From contig JAAFAL010000010.1 of the NCBI GenBank assembly GCA_018222345.1, positions 1 through 44,399 on the forward strand: a DNA stretch of 44,399 nucleotides. The letters run 5' to 3'. The notes under the pieces were generated by a model. It made no database searches and had not been told where the DNA came from. It was given only the letters and a program-made list of their open reading frames with translations. Source of the stretch: a bacterium. Lineage in GTDB: Bacteria > Pseudomonadota > Gammaproteobacteria > Nevskiales > OUC007. This document shows positions 1,908 to 34,106 of the stretch, in pieces; position 1 is the first letter of the stretch, and every line of letters begins with the position of its first letter. The position numbers and the translations under genes were made by a program.

Positions 1908-4900
1908 CAGCGCAGTTCTCTCCAGGTCGCGCGTTGGCGTTCAAAGCCGCCAGGGGTGGCGACGACGGACGACACCGTACCATCTTCGCTGCGCGACAAG
2001 GTCACCTCTTTGCCGTCCTGGGTTAGCAGCACCGTGGGCACTGCGCTGATCGCGTCGTTGCGGATGCCGTTGGCAAAAATACCGTCGATAGTCTGGTCGA
2101 TAGGCGCCACAAAGGGGCGGCCGCCGGACGCGGACTCCAGCCGATAAACCACCGACGAGCCATCAAATGTGCATTGGCTGTCGGACGGCAACACCGTGGC
2201 AAAACTGATCTGGCCGTTGCGCAATGACGGGTCGCCAAAGATGCGCTCGCCTTCGTTGTCGCTGGCGCCAGCGACGATCAGGTCGAGATACCAACCCAAA
2301 TGCGTACCTGCGCCGGTGTTGAGTGCATTGCGATAGTTGACGGCGTTGTTGCTGGTCACGCGTAGCGTGGTCGGCTCGTCGTCACCATCGTTGTCGAGGT
2401 CGGCGCTGACAGTTCGTTCGTCGTCGATGGTTTGTTCCAGCAGGTCGCTCTGGTCGATGTCGGGTTGGGTGCCGGCGCTGTACTTGTCCCAGATCGAATA
2501 AAAGCTTTGCGTGGGTTGGCCGCTACTGGTCAGGTCTTCGACCTCATGGAATTTGCCGGTGCCAAACAGCACCAGAATATCTTCGACCGGATGCAAGCCG
2601 ACCTCGGGCCGTGTGGTGATGGGTTGATAGACGCCGGCAAGCACGGAGGAATTGACCAAGGGCTGGTTGTCGCTCACAAGCTTGAAGGCGAAGTCCCAGT
2701 TGTCGGAATCGCTGTCGTCCGTGTCGATGCGCCACATGTTGCCGCGCTCGTCACCGGCGTAGATGCGGTCGATGATGAAGTCGCCGTCCAGATCAACCGG
2801 CGCGGGGTCGGCCAAACCGTTGGGACGGCCATCATTGGTTTCGAAGTCTCCGGCAGTTCCTGTACCTGTCGGATCAGGCGCATCGATCGGGATGAGTGAC
2901 GCGTTGGTGCCGGTGAGCGGTGGCACCCAATTGCCAACACCGGTATCGAACACGCCGGCTTCGCCAGGTGCATTGATGGCGCCGGTTGCCAAGTCAACAA
3001 CGTATAACACCGCATTGCCGCTGGTGGATACGCCAAGGCCCAGCAGTTGGGCGTCGGTGTCTTGGGCAACGCCAATGTCCACATCGGTGGCGTGGTAGCC
3101 ATTGGCCAGCACGGCTGCCCAACGGCCGTCGGCCATGCGCGTGATGTTCGGCCGCGCAAGGGAAAAGCCCATGTCGGGGTGGCCGTATTGCAGGCCCGTT
3201 GGAATCTGGTCGTCGAGAAAGTCCGACACCGTAGTCGTGACAGTTTCCAGCGTTGGCAAGCCGGTGAGCGGCACCGAAATATTGGTGATGTCAGTCAGTG
3301 CAGCGGCAACGCCCGGGGAGATCGTGCCGATCAAGTTGATCACCGAGCCGACCGCTGAAAGTTCGCACAAACCGCCCAAACCCGTGACAGCCTTGCAGAT
3401 GTCCTGCACGGCTTGCAGCGACAGATCATCCAGAAATACCGGGTCGGCGAGGTCGCCGAGGAAGTCGTATAGGCCATCGGTGAGGATGCCCTGGACCAGC
3501 AACTTGGCGCTGACCGCCAAGCCGGGAATGCCGAGGCCGGAGGGCGAGTCGGTGAACTCCCACAGCACAATGTCCTCGGCCAGGTCGTTTTGTTGGGTGG
3601 TGGTGGTCGCGCTGGCAAAGTTGCCTGGTTCGGTCACGTCCAGCGCAAAATAGCCTTGGCCACCGGAGCCGAGGCCGCCGACCAACACGGTGCGCCAGCA
3701 GCGCTCGCCGCTGGGGCAGGCGGGGAAGCTGTCGTAGGCATCGACCACGCTGATTTCGCCATCGACAAAAGTGCTGGCGGTGTAGCCGGGGCTGGCAATG
3801 TCGGCGACGCGATGCAGTACGGCGCCCGGTACGTAGGCCAACAACTCCTCACCGGTGTTGGCGTCGAAGCCGTGCAACATGCCGTCGTTGCCACCCACGT
3901 AAACCATCTCGCGGCGGCTGGCGTGCGTGCTGCGGAAGTTGCTGTAGCTGGCGGCAGAGCCAGTGCCTTCGAGGTCGTCCGGATAGTCGAATGCCGGCGC
4001 GCCGACAAACACCGGCTCCGAACGATAGATCGGCCCCATTAGCGAACTGCGGTCGCGCAAGTCGCCGCCGTTCTGCGCTTCGTTGCTGCGGTCACCGCGG
4101 ATGTAGTCCACGCGCGCTTCCGACAAGTTGCGCGTCAGGCCCACCAAAAATGCAGCGTCAATACCGTCGGCTGCGCAAACGGTGGTGGCGGTCGTGCTGC
4201 GAATCTCGGTAAAGCTGGTGCCGGCCAGCGCCAGGACGGGGTCGAGGAATTCGTCACGCAGATCGGCCAGTGCCGTGACCACGCTGCCCGGCAATAGCGG
4301 GTTGTTTTCGATGGCGCTGTACAGCTCGTTCGCCGCATTGGCAGCAGCGGCAACGCCGGCCAGGGCTTCGTTGATTTCGCTGTCGAAACCGAGTTGTGTC
4401 AGTTGGTCGGTGCGCGCCTCGCACAGTGCGTCGGGTGCAAAGCGGATGCCACTACGCGTGCCCTGGTTAAAGGTCAGTATCAGCCGGTCTTCCCAGTTGC
4501 TGCCAGCTAAGTCGATATCCAGCCGATCGGCCGCGCTCCAACTGCGATTACCCAGCGAGCCATCCATATCCAGCTCGAAGGCTTCCAGGTCGCCCTCGGC
4601 GCTGTCGGTGTTGTAGCTGGCCAGATAAATCAGTTGATCGCTCAGGATTGCACCTGACTGGATGCCGATGCCCGATGTGCCCTGGCTGCGCCCAGCTGTG
4701 AGGTCTAGTGTGGCGCCAAACTTGTCGATGATGTCCGGATCGCCAACTGCGCAGGACGCACCACGCCCATTGAAGGCGGCGTGGGTGAGGTCATCCAACA
4801 AATGTTGCGGGTCAAAATCACCGGCGCCGTGCGTGGGGTTGGGCCACGCGAAGGTGCCGGCCGAGGTGGTCGGTGTGCTCACCGTGCCGTTGAGGCCCAA

Positions 4901-6370
4901 GTGCAGCACAAAAGTGGATACGAACTGGCGCGCATCCAGGGTGGCATCCAGGTCGCGCTCGAAGGCGTCCATGGCGACATCGCCCAGCGTGCCGCTGAAG
5001 CTGTCGGCGTAGGTGCCGCCGTCAAAACTGGTGTTGTCGTCGCCGTCGGCATTGGCTGCGCCGTTGGCATCGGGCGTGTTGACCACCGAAACGTTGCTGC
5101 CAGGCACGCCGTTGGCAACAGTGGCGACTACAGTCGCGCCATTCGCCGTATCGAATCCGTCAGTTGCCAAAATGGTCGCCGCTTGTTGGCAACTGCCGGC
5201 AGTGGCGTCGGGCAGGCGCGGGCAGTTGGTGTTGCCATACAAATTGGTGGTCGAACCATCGCAGGCAAAGTAATTTTTTGCATCGTCCAGCGCTTGCCGC
5301 AACGGCGTGCCTGCCGCCGTGCCGCGCACCGAGAAGATGGCATCCATAACGGCGCGGCGGTGGCCGGTGGTTTCATCGTCATTGAGGAAATCCATCTCGA
5401 CCTGCGCAGCGTTTGTACGGTTGACAGCGGCCGTGCCGAGGTAGATGTCTTGCACGCCGGCCATGAACGTGGAAAGCGACGCCTTGAGCGAATGTGCCCG
5501 CGAGCGGTGATATTGGAACCAGTTGGCAAAGTTTTGCAGCTCGGCGGCGTCGGTGATCTCGATTAGCGTCGGTGTGTCGTTGTCATCAATGACCGAATCA
5601 GCGTTTGTATCTGTCAGCACGTAGTAGTGCGGGATATACACGCGAAAGTCGCAGTTGCTTGTATCGAAGACGCAAACCGCAGCGAGATCGTGCTCTGCCG
5701 ACCGCAAATTGCCGTTGACGTCCATCACCGGCACGTCGATGTCCAAGCGGGCAGTCAAATTGATGACGCCGGCCGTGGGGTCGTAGGGGTCGAGACGCGC
5801 TGCAGTCGGCGTTGCGTCGGCAAAGGCAGCGCCTGTGGCATCCACGCCATATGGCCAAGGTTCATAAGTCTCAGTGGGGTCGTAGTACTGGCTGTTGAAT
5901 TCCGGGCTGTAGGCTTTCCAGGCGTTGTCGTAATCCGGATGCAGGTCAACACCGCCAAAGAACGGCCGGCCTACGCGTGACGCGATTGCGCCGTCGTTCC
6001 AATAATTGACAACCTCGAGCCGTGGCGCTGCCAGGCGATGCAGATGCGCATTGGTGTAAGCGCCATCGCTGATTGGTGCATCCGCTGGTAGCGGGATGGT
6101 CCACGCATAATCCAGCCCGCCCATGGGCAGCTTGGCCAGGGCGTCGGTATCGTCCATGAGCAAGTTGGACGACATCGACAGGGAGTCGTCCAGCATCAAT
6201 AGCAGCATGGGCGGTGGCGACACGCCGAGTTCGACCGGCGTAGGCGGGATTTCCGAACCATCGGGCGACAGTGCGTCCAGCGGTAAGTCCTGCGCGCTGG
6301 CCAGGCCGCTACCCAGCGCGAGCAGAGCGGCTGCCAATTGGGTGTGCATACGCGTATGCAGATGCGTCAT
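1907..6370 (-). CDS. pilY1: PilY1 type IV pilus tip adhesin with an extra insertion in its beta-propeller
   Basis: This 1487-residue exported protein is the tip adhesin and retraction modulator of type IV pili. A Sec signal peptide ends near ASA at residue 26. A von Willebrand factor A-like region starts with a metal-site motif DDSLSMS at 61-67. The C-terminal half is the PilY1 beta-propeller (YVGGNDGMLHGFDANTG, GYFALDV). The acidic loop DLDGDFIIDRIYAGD near residues 1190-1204 matches the family calcium loop; another acidic loop, DLDNDGDDEP, lies near residue 1320. Between WEFTD and PDMGFS an insertion of about 120 residues (about 942-1062) interrupts the propeller; it is helical-looking and has two cysteines. 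Start at 6370, 3 bp after the pilX stop; a second ATG seven codons in has no better ribosome site. It would work with PilV/W/X at the pilus tip. Confidence 0.93.
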   Translation of the reverse strand: MTHLHTRMHTQLAAALLALGSGLASAQDLPLDALSPDGSEIPPTPVELGVSPPPMLLLMLDDSLSMSSNLLMDDTDALAKLPMGGLDYAWTIPLPADAPISDGAYTNAHLHRLAAPRLEVVNYWNDGAIASRVGRPFFGGVDLHPDYDNAWKAYSPEFNSQYYDPTETYEPWPYGVDATGAAFADATPTAARLDPYDPTAGVINLTARLDIDVPVMDVNGNLRSAEHDLAAVCVFDTSNCDFRVYIPHYYVLTDTNADSVIDDNDTPTLIEITDAAELQNFANWFQYHRSRAHSLKASLSTFMAGVQDIYLGTAAVNRTNAAQVEMDFLNDDETTGHRRAVMDAIFSVRGTAAGTPLRQALDDAKNYFACDGSTTNLYGNTNCPRLPDATAGSCQQAATILATDGFDTANGATVVATVANGVPGSNVSVVNTPDANGAANADGDDNTSFDGGTYADSFSGTLGDVAMDAFERDLDATLDARQFVSTFVLHLGLNGTVSTPTTSAGTFAWPNPTHGAGDFDPQHLLDDLTHAAFNGRGASCAVGDPDIIDKFGATLDLTAGRSQGTSGIGIQSGAILSDQLIYLASYNTDSAEGDLEAFELDMDGSLGNRSWSAADRLDIDLAGSNWEDRLILTFNQGTRSGIRFAPDALCEARTDQLTQLGFDSEINEALAGVAAAANAANELYSAIENNPLLPGSVVTALADLRDEFLDPVLALAGTSFTEIRSTTATTVCAADGIDAAFLVGLTRNLSEARVDYIRGDRSNEAQNGGDLRDRSSLMGPIYRSEPVFVGAPAFDYPDDLEGTGSAASYSNFRSTHASRREMVYVGGNDGMLHGFDANTGEELLAYVPGAVLHRVADIASPGYTASTFVDGEISVVDAYDSFPACPSGERCWRTVLVGGLGSGGQGYFALDVTEPGNFASATTTTQQNDLAEDIVLWEFTDSPSGLGIPGLAVSAKLLVQGILTDGLYDFLGDLADPVFLDDLSLQAVQDICKAVTGLGGLCELSAVGSVINLIGTISPGVAAALTDITNISVPLTGLPTLETVTTTVSDFLDDQIPTGLQYGHPDMGFSLARPNITRMADGRWAAVLANGYHATDVDIGVAQDTDAQLLGLGVSTSGNAVLYVVDLATGAINAPGEAGVFDTGVGNWVPPLTGTNASLIPIDAPDPTGTGTAGDFETNDGRPNGLADPAPVDLDGDFIIDRIYAGDERGNMWRIDTDDSDSDNWDFAFKLVSDNQPLVNSSVLAGVYQPITTRPEVGLHPVEDILVLFGTGKFHEVEDLTSSGQPTQSFYSIWDKYSAGTQPDIDQSDLLEQTIDDERTVSADLDNDGDDEPTTLRVTSNNAVNYRNALNTGAGTHLGWYLDLIVAGASDNEGERIFGDPSLRNGQISFATVLPSDSQCTFDGSSVVYRLESASGGRPFVAPIDQTIDGIFANGIRNDAISAVPTVLLTQDGKEVTLSRSEDGTVSSVVATPGGFERQRATWRELR

Positions 6371-29242: not shown

Positions 29243-29675
29243 TCATACGCCACTTACAGCATAGATTGCGGCGGCAATTGAATTCGCAACCATCAAGGTG
29301 AAATCCGTGATGAAGATGAAGCGCATTAAACCCCTGACTTCCCATACGCCCCGGCCTTTCCGGTTAGCCAGCGCAACAGGCACATTGGATACGAACTGCG
29401 ACCCGTGGGCGATAGCAAACGCCACGCACAAAATGGCCCTTTGCTCCGCCTCCGGGAAGGTGCTGGTGTTGATCAGCACCAGCAAATTCAGGGCGCAAAA
29501 AGCAAGGTTGAAACCACCCAAAAAAGAGCCCCGTCGCTGCCAGCGCGTCGAAAACCGGCGTGTCGCGATGCGCCTTTGGCACAAGTATTTTCGCAAAGGC
29601 TTTGTTGCGTAGCGCAAACAAATGAAACGCCAAGCTAAACCAGATGGCGTTTGCCAGGAGAACAAGCTCAAACAT
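29243..29675 (-). pseudogene. Small membrane protein gene with a one-base frameshift in a T6 tract
   Basis: Two overlapping minus-strand frames together make one membrane protein. The first, from ATG 29675, reads MFELVLLANAIWFSLAFHLF and continues to ATGLFF; the second frame reads GGFNLAFCALNLLVLINTST and continues to IAAAIYAVSGV at 29243. The switch falls in a run of six T on the coding strand (29525-29520). Removing one T gives a continuous product of about 143 residues with four hydrophobic segments. The alternative N-terminus of the 29671 ORF is arginine-rich and lacks membrane character, so it is a shifted reading. It may be a true pseudogene, a sequencing error in a homopolymer, or less likely +1 slippage. 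Family unknown. Confidence 0.75.
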
Positions 29676-30505: not shown

Positions 30506-30528
30506 TTACCTCATGGCGATGTTAGAGC
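30506..30528 (-). repeat. Half attC-like sequence overlapping the Abi_C gene stop
   Basis: On the minus strand CTCTAACATCGCCATGAGG begins inside the last codons of the HEPN-like gene, with its TAA stop forming part of the TAAC core. The same CTCTAAC...GCCATGAGG arrangement appears in the complete site at 31300-31386. No matching right arm is found before the DUF2165 gene, so this may be the left part of a cassette recombination site that lost its other half. It could also be a chance match. Confidence 0.4.
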
Positions 30529-31271
30529 GCACTTTTCGCGCGATACGTTGCAATGAGAAACATTGAAACAGAACCAGCGAGGTTTACTGCTAATTCTGCA
30601 TGACGTGGAGCTGGCTTTGCTGGCAGCTTCCCCTTGCCATGTGCATCACCTAGCCGATTTCTAAGTGTTCCTAGCCCTGAAACTATGCCGGAACACCCAC
30701 CCAATATTTGCTTGAACACTTTTTCGTTGTGTTGATCCGGCGACAACGTCAGCTCCTTTGCGACCAATTTATATAGCTCGTGTAACTCGATGGCATTGGA
30801 ATCGTATCCGACCTGCAATTCATCGAGGATATGCTTGCACGTAGTTTCTAGAAGAGTGCGTGCGCTGGTTATTGCCCCCTCTGGATCATTGACACGCCTT
30901 TCCAAGGCCTTGGACCACACGCCTTGAACTCCTGACTCACTAAGTTGCCCCAGCGCGTCAGAAATTGAAGTGTCTGCAGGCGCCCTGCTGCCTGACTCAA
31001 GCTGCTCCAGCAACGGATTGAATTCTTCCCAGATGAACTGCCTGCGCTCGGCGTAACTTGGAAACTTGTGCTTAATGAACTGCCAGAACTGCGACAAATC
31101 TCGATTGGTTCGTACGAATCTTGGGACGCATTGCTTGGTGGCATGATTGTTCAAAAACTCCAGCCGGAGTGCCTGATAGTGCTGGTTATCTGCATTTCCG
31201 CCGGTAGCCTGCGAAATCAGCATGCTCAGCAAATACTCTCCACGCTCGTAGGCTGAGTCTAGTTCTTCCAA
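30522..31271 (-). CDS. Abi_C / HEPN-like protein, candidate abortive-infection factor
   Basis: The 249-residue soluble protein has a C-terminal half matching the abortive-infection C-terminal domain: NDPEGAITSARTLLETTCKH, FKQILGGCSGIVSGLGTLRN and then RLGDAHG with RHAELAVNLAGS. The RN...H pattern (R204, H211) fits the R-X4-6-H motif of HEPN ribonucleases. The N-terminal half (1-120) is helical and unrecognised. The start is taken as TTG at 31271 because the frame is closed 33 bp upstream by a stop inside the attC-like site; ribosome site is weak. It is less GC-rich than flanking core genes and placed right after a cassette recombination site, as expected for an acquired gene. RNA cleavage and phage defence are inferred, not shown. 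Confidence 0.75.
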   Translation of the reverse strand: MEELDSAYERGEYLLSMLISQATGGNADNQHYQALRLEFLNNHATKQCVPRFVRTNRDLSQFWQFIKHKFPSYAERRQFIWEEFNPLLEQLESGSRAPADTSISDALGQLSESGVQGVWSKALERRVNDPEGAITSARTLLETTCKHILDELQVGYDSNAIELHELYKLVAKELTLSPDQHNEKVFKQILGGCSGIVSGLGTLRNRLGDAHGKGKLPAKPAPRHAELAVNLAGSVSMFLIATYRAKSAL

Positions 31272-31299
31272 GGTTGCAATACCTACTGTCGTGCGTCCG

Positions 31300-31386
31300 C
31301 TCTAACGCCTGCCATGAGGGGCGTTTTTGGAGTGGAGCGCGCAGCGCGTAACGGAAAAAACGGCCCGCTCCATGGCATTGTTATAC
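31300..31386 (-). repeat. attC-like integron cassette recombination site
   Basis: This 87-bp imperfect palindrome has outer cores GTATAAC (minus-strand start) and GTTAGAG (end). Inside these, ATGCCATGG pairs with CTCATGGCA, and further in, GGGCGTTTTT pairs with AAAAACGGCCC with one unpaired G, an extrahelical base as expected for attC. The top contains CGCGCAGCGCG. It lies 4 bp after the stop of the GDCCVxC gene and before the HEPN-like gene, matching cassette order gene-attC-gene on the minus strand. The final base of the right core deviates from the GTTRRRY consensus. No integrase gene is in the window. Confidence 0.65.
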
Positions 31387-31390
31387 GGCA

Positions 31391-31600
31391 CTACCCGCAA
31401 CTTTTACTTTCTTGAATTGGAGGGCATGGAACAGAACCGTACGAGCAAAAAACACAACAATCACCTTGCTGAGGTTTAAGCAAAGTATTGCAGCCCTGAC
31501 ATTCATAAAAATACTGGCATGAATCAGTGGGCATTGTTTCTTGTTTTTTGTGACCACACTCAGGACAAGTGATTTCAGATTTAAGGGTTACGTTGGGCAT
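31391..31600 (-). CDS. GDCCVxC-domain small zinc-ribbon-like protein
   Basis: The 69-residue protein is cysteine-rich: CPEC at 12-15, CQGC at 34-37 and the signature GDCCVFCSYG with GDCC at 46-49 and Cys 52, followed by VPCPP. This is the pattern of the GDCCVxC family, some members of which carry selenocysteine; here all positions are ordinary Cys codons. The ATG at 31600 gives the family's usual N-terminus and overlaps the merC end by 13 bases. A metal-binding or redox role linked to mercury or thiol stress is inferred from merC next door. Followed by the attC-like site. Confidence 0.85.
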   Translation of the reverse strand: MPNVTLKSEITCPECGHKKQETMPTDSCQYFYECQGCNTLLKPQQGDCCVFCSYGSVPCPPIQESKSCG

Positions 31601-31983
31601 GCAGGTTGCCTCGGTGGTTTGAGCACATCTAAGACCGAAACGGAGAGCATATGTGCCAGAGCGGCATAGAAAAGGTACGTGCTCCAGCCGTACTTCCAGA
31701 GTGGATACAGGGTAAGGAGAACAGCACTCGGGCCAAGCAGCGAAAGCAGGCCGCGCCAATGAACACGATGCTGCCACCAATAAAAGAGGTTAATGGCTAT
31801 GACCAGAATTGCGAAGAAAGGCAGCAGCTTACTGATTAGGACGCCCTCATAGGCAGATAGGAAGCCCAAACCAACCGAAGCAGCCAATGCTCCCAACGCG
31901 GGAAAACAAGCTGCACAACCCATAGCGGCAACGATGGTTCCAAGTGCGGCGAATTTTTCAGCGAATTTTGGCGCTCTGCTCAT
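31588..31983 (-). CDS. merC: MerC-like inner-membrane (mercury) transport protein
   Basis: The 131-residue protein has four hydrophobic segments. The motif GCAACFPALGALAASVGLGF with Cys23 and Cys26 in the first helix, and LSAYEG after it, match the MerC family, where a vicinal cysteine pair passes Hg(II) across the membrane. The ATG at 31983 lies 12 bp after a GTTATAC core on the minus strand, as usual for the first gene of an integron cassette, and has an AAGAGA ribosome site. No merA or merR is nearby, so mercury itself may not be the substrate. Forms a two-gene unit with the GDCCVxC gene. Confidence 0.85.
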   Translation of the reverse strand: MSRAPKFAEKFAALGTIVAAMGCAACFPALGALAASVGLGFLSAYEGVLISKLLPFFAILVIAINLFYWWQHRVHWRGLLSLLGPSAVLLTLYPLWKYGWSTYLFYAALAHMLSVSVLDVLKPPRQPACPT

Positions 31984-31995
31984 GTCTCTTGTGCC

Positions 31996-32121
31996 GTATA
32001 ACGCCAATTAGGTGGATAAATGTCCGCATAACAAAGCTGCAGCCGGCGCGGCCAGAATACTGATTGAAGCGTCCAAGATGTACTCATTTATCCGGGTTTT
32101 CCGTGATTAGGTGGACATGCC
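31996..32121. repeat. Recombination-site remnant upstream of merC
   Basis: The minus strand carries a GGCGTTATAC core (32004-31996) just before merC, as at the end of an attC site. Further out, GGATAAATG (32014-32022) and CATTTATCC (32085-32093) are perfect inverted arms, and ATTAGGTGGA occurs twice in direct orientation (near 32008 and 32106). A second core-like GCATAAC lies at 32026-32032. The other attC arm is not recognisable, so the site looks decayed or rearranged. No ORF is seen in 31984-32213. Confidence 0.4.
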
Positions 32122-32262: not shown

Positions 32263-33918
32263 TTACATGACAGCCGGAATACCCAGCTCGCCCAGGCCTT
32301 TGGCCTTGTAGTTCTCGTGGAACATGTCCAGCAACTGGGCGGCTTGTGCGTCGTAGGCGTCCTTGTCGTCCCAGGTGTTGCGGGGGTCGAGGATGTCGGC
32401 GGGCACATCGGGGCAGCTGGTTGGCATTTTTAGCTTGAACACGGGGTGTTCGGCGTAGCTGACCTTGTCGCTGTCCAGGTCGCCAGCCAGGGCGGCGTCG
32501 AGCAGGGCGCGGGTGTGCTTGATGCTGATGCGCTTGCCCGTGCCGTAAGGGCCGCCACTCCAACCCGTGTTGAGCAGTATGCAGCGCGTGTTGTGGGCTT
32601 TCATCTTCTCAGCCAGCAGCTCGGCATACACCGATGGTTTGCGGGCCATGAACGGTGCGCCAAAGCAGGCCGAGAATGCAGCCTTGGGTTCGGTCACGCC
32701 GACCTCGGTGCCGGCCAGTTTGGCGGTGAAGCCCGAGACGAAGTGATACATCGCCTGCTCGGGGTCGAGGATGGACACGGGCGGCAGCACGCCGAAGGCA
32801 TCCGCCGTGAGGAAGATGATGGTCTCGGGGTGCGGGCCGCGGGCGCCATCGGCGACGTTGGGATTGCATTCCAACGGGTACGAAAAGCGCGTGTTCTCGG
32901 TGATGGACTTGTCGGTCAGGTCCAGGTCCTGCGGGTCGGTGTCGGCCAGCGCCTTGCCGGGCAGCGGCGGGACGTTTTCGATGACGGTGCCGGGCATCGA
33001 CAGCGCCGCAGCAATAATCGGCTCGGCGTCTTTGTTCAGGTCGATCAGCTTGGCGTAACAGCCGCCTTCGAAGTTGCTGATGCCGTCATCCGTCCACGCG
33101 TGTTCGTCGTCGCCGATCAGCTCGCGTTCGGGGTCGGCCGACAGGGTGGTTTTGCCGGTGCCGCTGAGGCCGAACAGCACCGCGCCGTCGCCGCGTTTGC
33201 CCACGTTGGCGCTGCTGTGCATCGACAGGTTGCCATCGGCCGGCAGTTGGTAGTTCATGACCGTGAACATGGTCTTCTTGTTGATGCCGCAGTAATCGGC
33301 GCGGCCCAGCACCAGGCCGGTGCGGGTCTTGAAGTCCATGATGACCGCGCGTTCGCTGCGGGTGCCGTCGCGCTCGGGGTTGCAGGTGAAGCTCGGCACG
33401 TTGATCAGCGTCCAGCGCTTGGCCTCGGCGTCGTCAACCGTCACGTCGCTGGCAAACATGTTTTTGCAGAACATGGCGTGCGTGGCGAACTCGCCTACAA
33501 AGCGGTAGGGCACCGAGTAGCTGGGGTCCCAGCCGCAGAACACGTCCTGCACATACAGGCGGGCGTTCTTGTCGTTCAGGTGGGCGACGGCGCGAGCCAG
33601 CAGCGGCTGGAACTTGTCGGCGTCAAACTTTTTGAAGTCTTTTTTCCACCACACGCTGTCTTCCAGCTCGGGGTGGGCGACAGCGAAGGTGTCTTGTACC
33701 GGGCGGCCGGTGCAGTCGGGGTCGGTGTAGAACACCAGCGGGCCATCAACGCCCAGTTTGGTGGCGAACGCCTTCTGGGCGTCGTCGGGGCCACCTTTGG
33801 CCACACGACCGCGGTCGTTGGCGATGGCTTCGTTGAACAGGGTGGCCTTGTCGAGGTTGTAGTGAAAATCAACCGTATCCAGGCCGTATTGCTGCTTGAG
33901 CGCGGCGCGAAAATCCAT
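32263..33918 (-). CDS. pckA: ATP-dependent phosphoenolpyruvate carboxykinase
   Basis: PckA converts oxaloacetate plus ATP to PEP and CO2, the first step of gluconeogenesis. The 551-residue protein has the substrate-site region INKKTMFTVMNYQLP, the kinase P-loop GLSGTGKTTLSADP, the metal-site run GDDEHAW, and ENTRFSYPLE. The TGRxxxD segment near the N-terminus reads TGRPVQD where E. coli has TGRSPKD, so a Ser/Lys pair is changed while the Arg is kept. The motifs are of the ATP type, not the GTP type used by Xanthomonas. The ATG at 33918 gives the usual N-terminus; the ORF to 34035 is unsupported. A terminator-like hairpin lies in its leader. Confidence 0.94.
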   Translation of the reverse strand: MDFRAALKQQYGLDTVDFHYNLDKATLFNEAIANDRGRVAKGGPDDAQKAFATKLGVDGPLVFYTDPDCTGRPVQDTFAVAHPELEDSVWWKKDFKKFDADKFQPLLARAVAHLNDKNARLYVQDVFCGWDPSYSVPYRFVGEFATHAMFCKNMFASDVTVDDAEAKRWTLINVPSFTCNPERDGTRSERAVIMDFKTRTGLVLGRADYCGINKKTMFTVMNYQLPADGNLSMHSSANVGKRGDGAVLFGLSGTGKTTLSADPERELIGDDEHAWTDDGISNFEGGCYAKLIDLNKDAEPIIAAALSMPGTVIENVPPLPGKALADTDPQDLDLTDKSITENTRFSYPLECNPNVADGARGPHPETIIFLTADAFGVLPPVSILDPEQAMYHFVSGFTAKLAGTEVGVTEPKAAFSACFGAPFMARKPSVYAELLAEKMKAHNTRCILLNTGWSGGPYGTGKRISIKHTRALLDAALAGDLDSDKVSYAEHPVFKLKMPTSCPDVPADILDPRNTWDDKDAYDAQAAQLLDMFHENYKAKGLGELGIPAVM

Positions 33919-33955
33919 GTGAGATCTCGTAAAAGCTGAAAAACCGGGCGCCAAC

Positions 33956-33978
33956 AAAAAAGACCCGCGGCTGGCGGG
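33956..33978 (-). promoter_or_regulatory. Terminator-like hairpin in the pckA leader (possible attenuator)
   Basis: On the minus strand CCCGC, a 5-base loop CAGCC and GCGGG are followed by TCTTTTTTG, about 37 bp before the pckA ATG. No minus-strand gene lies upstream that it could terminate, since the next gene starts divergently at 34107. If the pckA promoter is upstream of it, it could attenuate transcription; if the promoter lies between, it has no such role. No strong -35/-10 pair was found downstream of the hairpin. Confidence 0.4.
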
Positions 33979-34106
33979 CTTCGGGCGGGCGTTGACTAAG
34001 CCCGACAGGGTAGCGTGGGCGGACTTTACCCGCAAGCTGCGCGGGCGGTGTATTCTACATTTAACAATAACTTTATCAATGTGGGCAGCAGACCCGCGGG
34101 GGAGCG

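Follow-up and report, generated by a model that had tools for sequence, protein, structure and literature searches.

The window (the whole 44,399-nt stretch of DNA analysed here) in all likelihood carries a decayed chromosomal integron without an integrase, and not random debris, located 3' of the PEPCK gene (32263-34035). On the minus strand the order is an attI-like site, merC, a GDCCVxC ORF, an 87-base hairpin and an Abi_C gene, followed by a half site overlapping the Abi_C stop codon and then a DUF2165 gene. The features are as follows:

32000..32045, minus strand: predicted attI relic; DR1-like box GTTATGCGG ∼30 bp before the crossover, then TTATCCACCTAATTGGCG/TTATAC (slash, crossover); rank 1 with the attI matrix
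31387..32002, minus strand: cassette 1 (merC + GDCCVxC); core GTTATACGGCAC to GTGCCGTATAAC; exact 12-bp end complementarity
31588..31983, minus strand: merC, mercury transport membrane protein; intact ORF; NF033784 152.6 bits (cut-off 140), PF03203
31391..31603, minus strand: small ORF with GDCCVxC (seleno)protein domain; NF041374 106.8 bits (cut-off 40)
31300..31386, minus strand: intact attC of cassette 1; R'' GTATAAC ... R' GTTAGAG; copies in the genome, covariation, matches to covariance models R1 and R2 (below)
30521..31306, minus strand: cassette 2 (Abi_C/AbiJ-like gene); GTTAGAGCG to CGCTCTAAC; 9-bp end complementarity
30522..31271, minus strand: Abi_C-domain protein (AbiJ-like C-terminus), 249 aa; intact; probable TTG start; PF14355 80 bits
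30507..30529, minus strand: attC of cassette 2, truncated to R'' plus GCCATGAGG; lacks L', R' and the central part

The start of the GDCCVxC ORF overlaps the end of merC, and the ORF is contained in a longer one (31391-31780). The GC content of the two cassettes is 49% and 51% vs. 62.5% for the window, in agreement with the lower GC noted in the original prediction, and the window's lowest-GC 700-bp stretch is inside the array. Outside the array, two overlapping minus-strand frames at 29243-29675 (142 and 103 aa) look like one membrane-protein gene frameshifted near a run of A at ∼29510.

The attC hairpin and the cassette boundaries

The palindrome at 31300-31386 (minus strand) is a genuine attC. 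It had been proposed as attC-like from its fold and an extrahelical base, and both its relatives in the genome and the covariation of its stem bear this out. Its fold, taken alone, is modest (DNA z -2.3 on the plus strand, -2.0 on the minus strand). Four strong further copies (77-87% identity) were found on contigs C179, C160, and C216 when the genome was searched with the site alone, and the genome holds seven further attC on C144, C160, C179, and C216. Six aligned sites fold as attC with the unpaired bases confined to one arm; in the window hairpin the extrahelical bases are in columns 16, 20, and 24 of alignment A1, on one arm only. The R''/R' and L''/L' arms together with extrahelical bases on one arm are those of a gene cassette attC. 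Over the six sites 8 pairs (13 cells) showed compensatory changes, a number of cells reached in 0 of 500 shuffles, and 85.6% of cells were paired vs. 34-50% once the partners were slid.

Covariance model R1 was built from the six own-genome sites, and R2 is a broader model. A low score was to count against the site; its scores are high, at 105 bits for R1 and 67.5 bits for R2, both of which had it in their training sets. Training sites match these models by construction, and the two C144 sites are outside both sets. At E below 1e-6, R2 gave eight sites in the genome: C82, C144 (two), C160, C179 (two), and C216 (two). A weaker additional site on C18 was listed by R1. In relatives, R1 matched site clusters, several of which directly adjoin intact intI (L088, L092, L089) or truncated intI (L077); this is an independent test because those neighbours took no part in building R1. 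The further attC that the original prediction called for are thus present in this genome and also beside integrases in its relatives. An Rfam search gave no attC family match, and the Rfam matches listed all lie outside 31300-31386.

A cassette begins with R' and finishes with R'', and as both come from one circular molecule its ends must be complementary. The start of the merC/GDCCVxC cassette, GTTATACGGCAC (32002-31991), is complementary to its end, GTGCCGTATAAC (31391-31380), at 12 of 12 positions; the Abi_C cassette start GTTAGAGCG is complementary to its end CGCTCTAAC at 9 of 9, and one C216 cassette has ends complementary at 11 of 11. Complementarity over 12 bp is by itself common (30 such pairs in 44 kb, judged by distance alone); it carries weight here because it is placed exactly on both cores. 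The cassette boundaries are real. As originally described, the merC ATG (31983) follows the GTTATAC core (32002-31996, minus strand) at a distance of exactly 12 bp, and the TAA stop codon of Abi_C shares bases with the R'' half site (30529-30521). The end complementarity, the GDCCVxC gene after merC and the attI-like site had not been part of that description.

Beyond the second R'', only ∼14 bases of attC-like sequence are left, so the attC of the Abi_C cassette is truncated (30507-30529, undetected by R1 and R2) and only the merC/GDCCVxC cassette has an att site on each side. Judged from these sites, the latter could be excised by an integrase acting in trans, provided that it has kept its recombination competence, and for the Abi_C cassette the normal route of excision is probably closed. 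The array had been called a source of mobile functions: this may apply to the merC/GDCCVxC cassette at most, and only with an external integrase, and does not extend to the Abi_C cassette.

The attI-like site and the integrase search

The sequence ahead of the first core reads GTTATGCGGACATTTATCCACCTAATTGGCG followed by TTATAC, and positions 32024-32000 (minus strand), just 5' of merC, are predicted to be attI. The matrix used has 25 columns and was made from 15 attI sites 147-272 bp from intI in relatives, with the own genome excluded. Among 270,288 own-genome positions scanned the window site ranked first at 26.6-27.1 bits, within the 10-30 bits of true attI; the next best in the genome's own loci reached 18-20 bits. 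Sites upstream of the C216 array and of C18 scored 18.6 and 14.4 bits, respectively, vs. a 95% level of 14.1 bits for random 1.5-kb stretches, a level that is inflated because such sites occur in some of the stretches. The DR1 spacing is the same as in the attI of relatives; the box at -30 is present, without a clear second box at approximately -52. An attI model trained on the same-family genomes G001 and G003 (R3) missed the own-genome sites, the window's included, and attI there therefore rests on the order-level matrix. Plasmid DNA searched with the attI region gave short, weak matches only.

The attI regions of G001 and G003 (L076, L077, L162, L166, L191) share a conserved stretch ∼80 bp before the crossover, between boxes like GTTATACGGC. 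We take this stretch to resemble the IHF consensus AATCAANNNNTTA; to our knowledge an IHF-type arm on attI is unusual.

The array has a predicted attI at its head, as a complete integron does, and because it starts at a recognisable attI it would be a decayed integron. The original prediction of a remnant array stands as to the missing integrase; the array is more than the loose attC sites it described. A distant integrase might have inserted the cassettes at a secondary chromosomal (attG) site, with no integron ever present here. The window holds no intI remnant, as expected from such an event, and insertion of this kind is described in work by Loot et al. (2024) as cited in PMC12901181 and PMC12444791. 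The attG sites of those accounts are strongly divergent from classical att sites, unlike both attI and attC, whereas the site upstream of merC scores as attI, higher than any other position of the own DNA scanned. We regard this origin as improbable.

In the 98.4%-complete draft genome, the integron-integrase model gave no match above cut-off, as the original prediction had it, and nothing was found with an N-terminal IntI piece as query. Neither an intI gene nor a trace of one was found in the window, and no intI beside attI, as a complete integron has, was found in this genome. The IntI candidates turned out to be XerD, XerC and two other unrelated tyrosine recombinases (a control G001 protein scored 462 bits). 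IntI above cut-off was present in 60 of 100 relatives, and integrons are common in the order. In G010, of the same order, 22 attC matches were detected, many near contig ends, and no integron integrase at E 1e-60.

The draft consists of 220 contigs, and an integrase could sit in a gap. A complete integron on broken or misjoined contigs would give the same picture: attC repeats hamper assembly, as noted for drafts (PMC9024848), and the C160 array is cut by the contig end. Core genes flank the window array within its 44-kb contig, and the array runs from attI to a truncated attC; no intI gene was found at 98.4% completeness. An assembly artefact is therefore highly unlikely.

Integrase remnants in related genomes

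Six attI-like sites are present in G001 with one complete intI (C19); further ones head integrase-less arrays on C5 and at both ends of C21. In G003, integrase-less attI-headed arrays are on C148 and C283. Model R3, made from six G001/G003 sites, found unseen sites on G003 C369 (52 bits), G001 C12, and G001 C5 (348 kb); the C369 site, found blind, was then shown to precede four attC matches. The integrases of these genomes form a decay series: complete, 191 aa (G003 C311), an in-frame 77-residue piece of 75-80% identity adjoining attI (G001 C12), a stub of about 15 codons adjoining attI (G001 C21), and none. A further genome of the family, G002, gave no matches to attC or attI.

The G001 C5 array occupies about 3 kb between two genes that are 110 bp apart in G003, and by eye no attI-like sequence was seen in the 110-bp gap. 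From this empty site and the 3-kb insertion, attI came together with the cassettes. Synteny around PEPCK in G001-G003 gave no clean empty site for the window locus, because PEPCK there precedes other genes; a neighbour gene from that block is on another contig in the own genome. Elsewhere on G001 C5 (L192, 344000-356000; positions 4165-6323), an orphan attI-like site immediately precedes a gene resembling DNA cytosine methyltransferases and then a second gene; no attC was detected there.

The joint arrival of attI and cassettes in G001, and the intI stubs kept at two orphan attI, argue against attG insertion; the graded intI remains and the several integrase-less attI-headed arrays of the family favour local loss of the integrase. 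The same arrays could also be read as attI docking sites maintained at several places per genome and served in trans by one integrase elsewhere. G001 has six attI-like sites for one complete intI, and G003 has more integrase-less attI arrays, including the C369 array, whose attC were recognised after the attI model had pointed to it blind. The intI stubs adjoining orphan attI indicate loss rather than design, and no in-trans integrase was found in the own genome. Trans-docking at the window is set low because of these stubs and is very improbable. That one integrase in this family serves dispersed attI sites heading small arrays, so that apparently dead CALINs (clusters of attC sites lacking an integron integrase) are live satellite arrays, seems to us improbable.

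For a decayed integron, we propose that a sedentary chromosomal integron (intI, attI, cassettes) once stood 3' of PEPCK with its cassettes on the minus strand. Its integrase would have captured at least two cassettes (merC + GDCCVxC; Abi_C) by recombination of attI with the folded attC strand. Deletions would then have taken away all of intI on one flank and the greater part of the last attC on the other, and frozen two cassettes. The former presence of intI at this spot is suggested by analogy with the relatives, and the order of loss is what we infer.

Cassette genes and comparison with known systems

The merC, GDCCVxC, and Abi_C genes are intact; by its family, MerC imports mercury. In G001, a second genome of the family, mercury genes also occur near integrons: the attI-headed array on C21 (L162) has a MerT-like and a MerR-like gene at its distal end (1859-2692). 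The Abi_C protein shares its C-terminal domain with abortive-infection proteins (PF14355, 80 bits; PADLOC AbiJ, 64 bits) and has 35 homologues in named genomes, with up to 63% identity. Homologues in Nitrospina and Desulfatitalea assemblies are bounded by att cores (L024, cores GTTAGGTTTT and AAAACCTAAC; L017, attC on each side, the downstream one by eye), and the Nitrosomonas copy has attC sites nearby. Abi_C is therefore a recurrent cassette gene. Plasmid DNA searched with the array gave scattered gene-level matches only and no relative of the array. A viral scan for TAACGCCTGCCATGAGG gave one match (L015), with no attC context visible. A promoter scan 5' of merC did not find a sigma-70-like site; the cassettes could be transcribed from a remaining Pc or from elsewhere, if they are expressed.

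Other arrays in the own genome (L053 on C216, 5798-7579; L158 on C144, 3515-5440) carry an OLD nuclease (PADLOC Old, 691 bits) and an OLD-like ATPase/TOPRIM protein. Together with Abi_C, the OLD genes suggest that the scattered cassettes of this genome lean towards phage defence.

CALINs, an IntegronFinder class, make up about half of integron-related elements in genomes (2961 CALIN vs. 2760 complete; PMC9024848). Their origin has so far mostly been inferred. The window resembles them in having attC sites and cassettes in one orientation without an integrase. It differs in having one intact and one truncated attC, whereas the default threshold is two or more (the loci on C144, C179, and C216 have two each), and in keeping attI, which has no part in the CALIN definition; attI sites other than those of class 1 are said to be poorly described and go undetected by IntegronFinder (PMC9024848). 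The recognisable attI indicates that integrase-less arrays can be decayed integrons and not insertions at random sites. Recognition of attI together with shrinking integrase remnants would provide a test for sorting CALINs by origin. Among the genes frozen in the array is one of abortive-infection type, a recurrent cassette in other phyla.

The inactivated chromosomal integrons and CALINs of Xanthomonas (PMC12444791) are similar in that the ancestral intI was lost by deletions, leaving small frozen arrays at several loci. They belong to another lineage, and here there are several attI-headed arrays per genome and integrase stubs of varied length. In a limited literature search, several attI-headed integrase-less arrays within one genome were not found described. 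The sedentary chromosomal integrons of the same order (G001 C19, G026 C10, G045 C1) share the attC family, the attI core and the DR1 spacing with the window, but keep a complete intI. CALINs, their likely origin as degraded integrons, and the inactivated Xanthomonas chromosomal integrons are already known; the retained attI and the decay series are the additions to this known kind.
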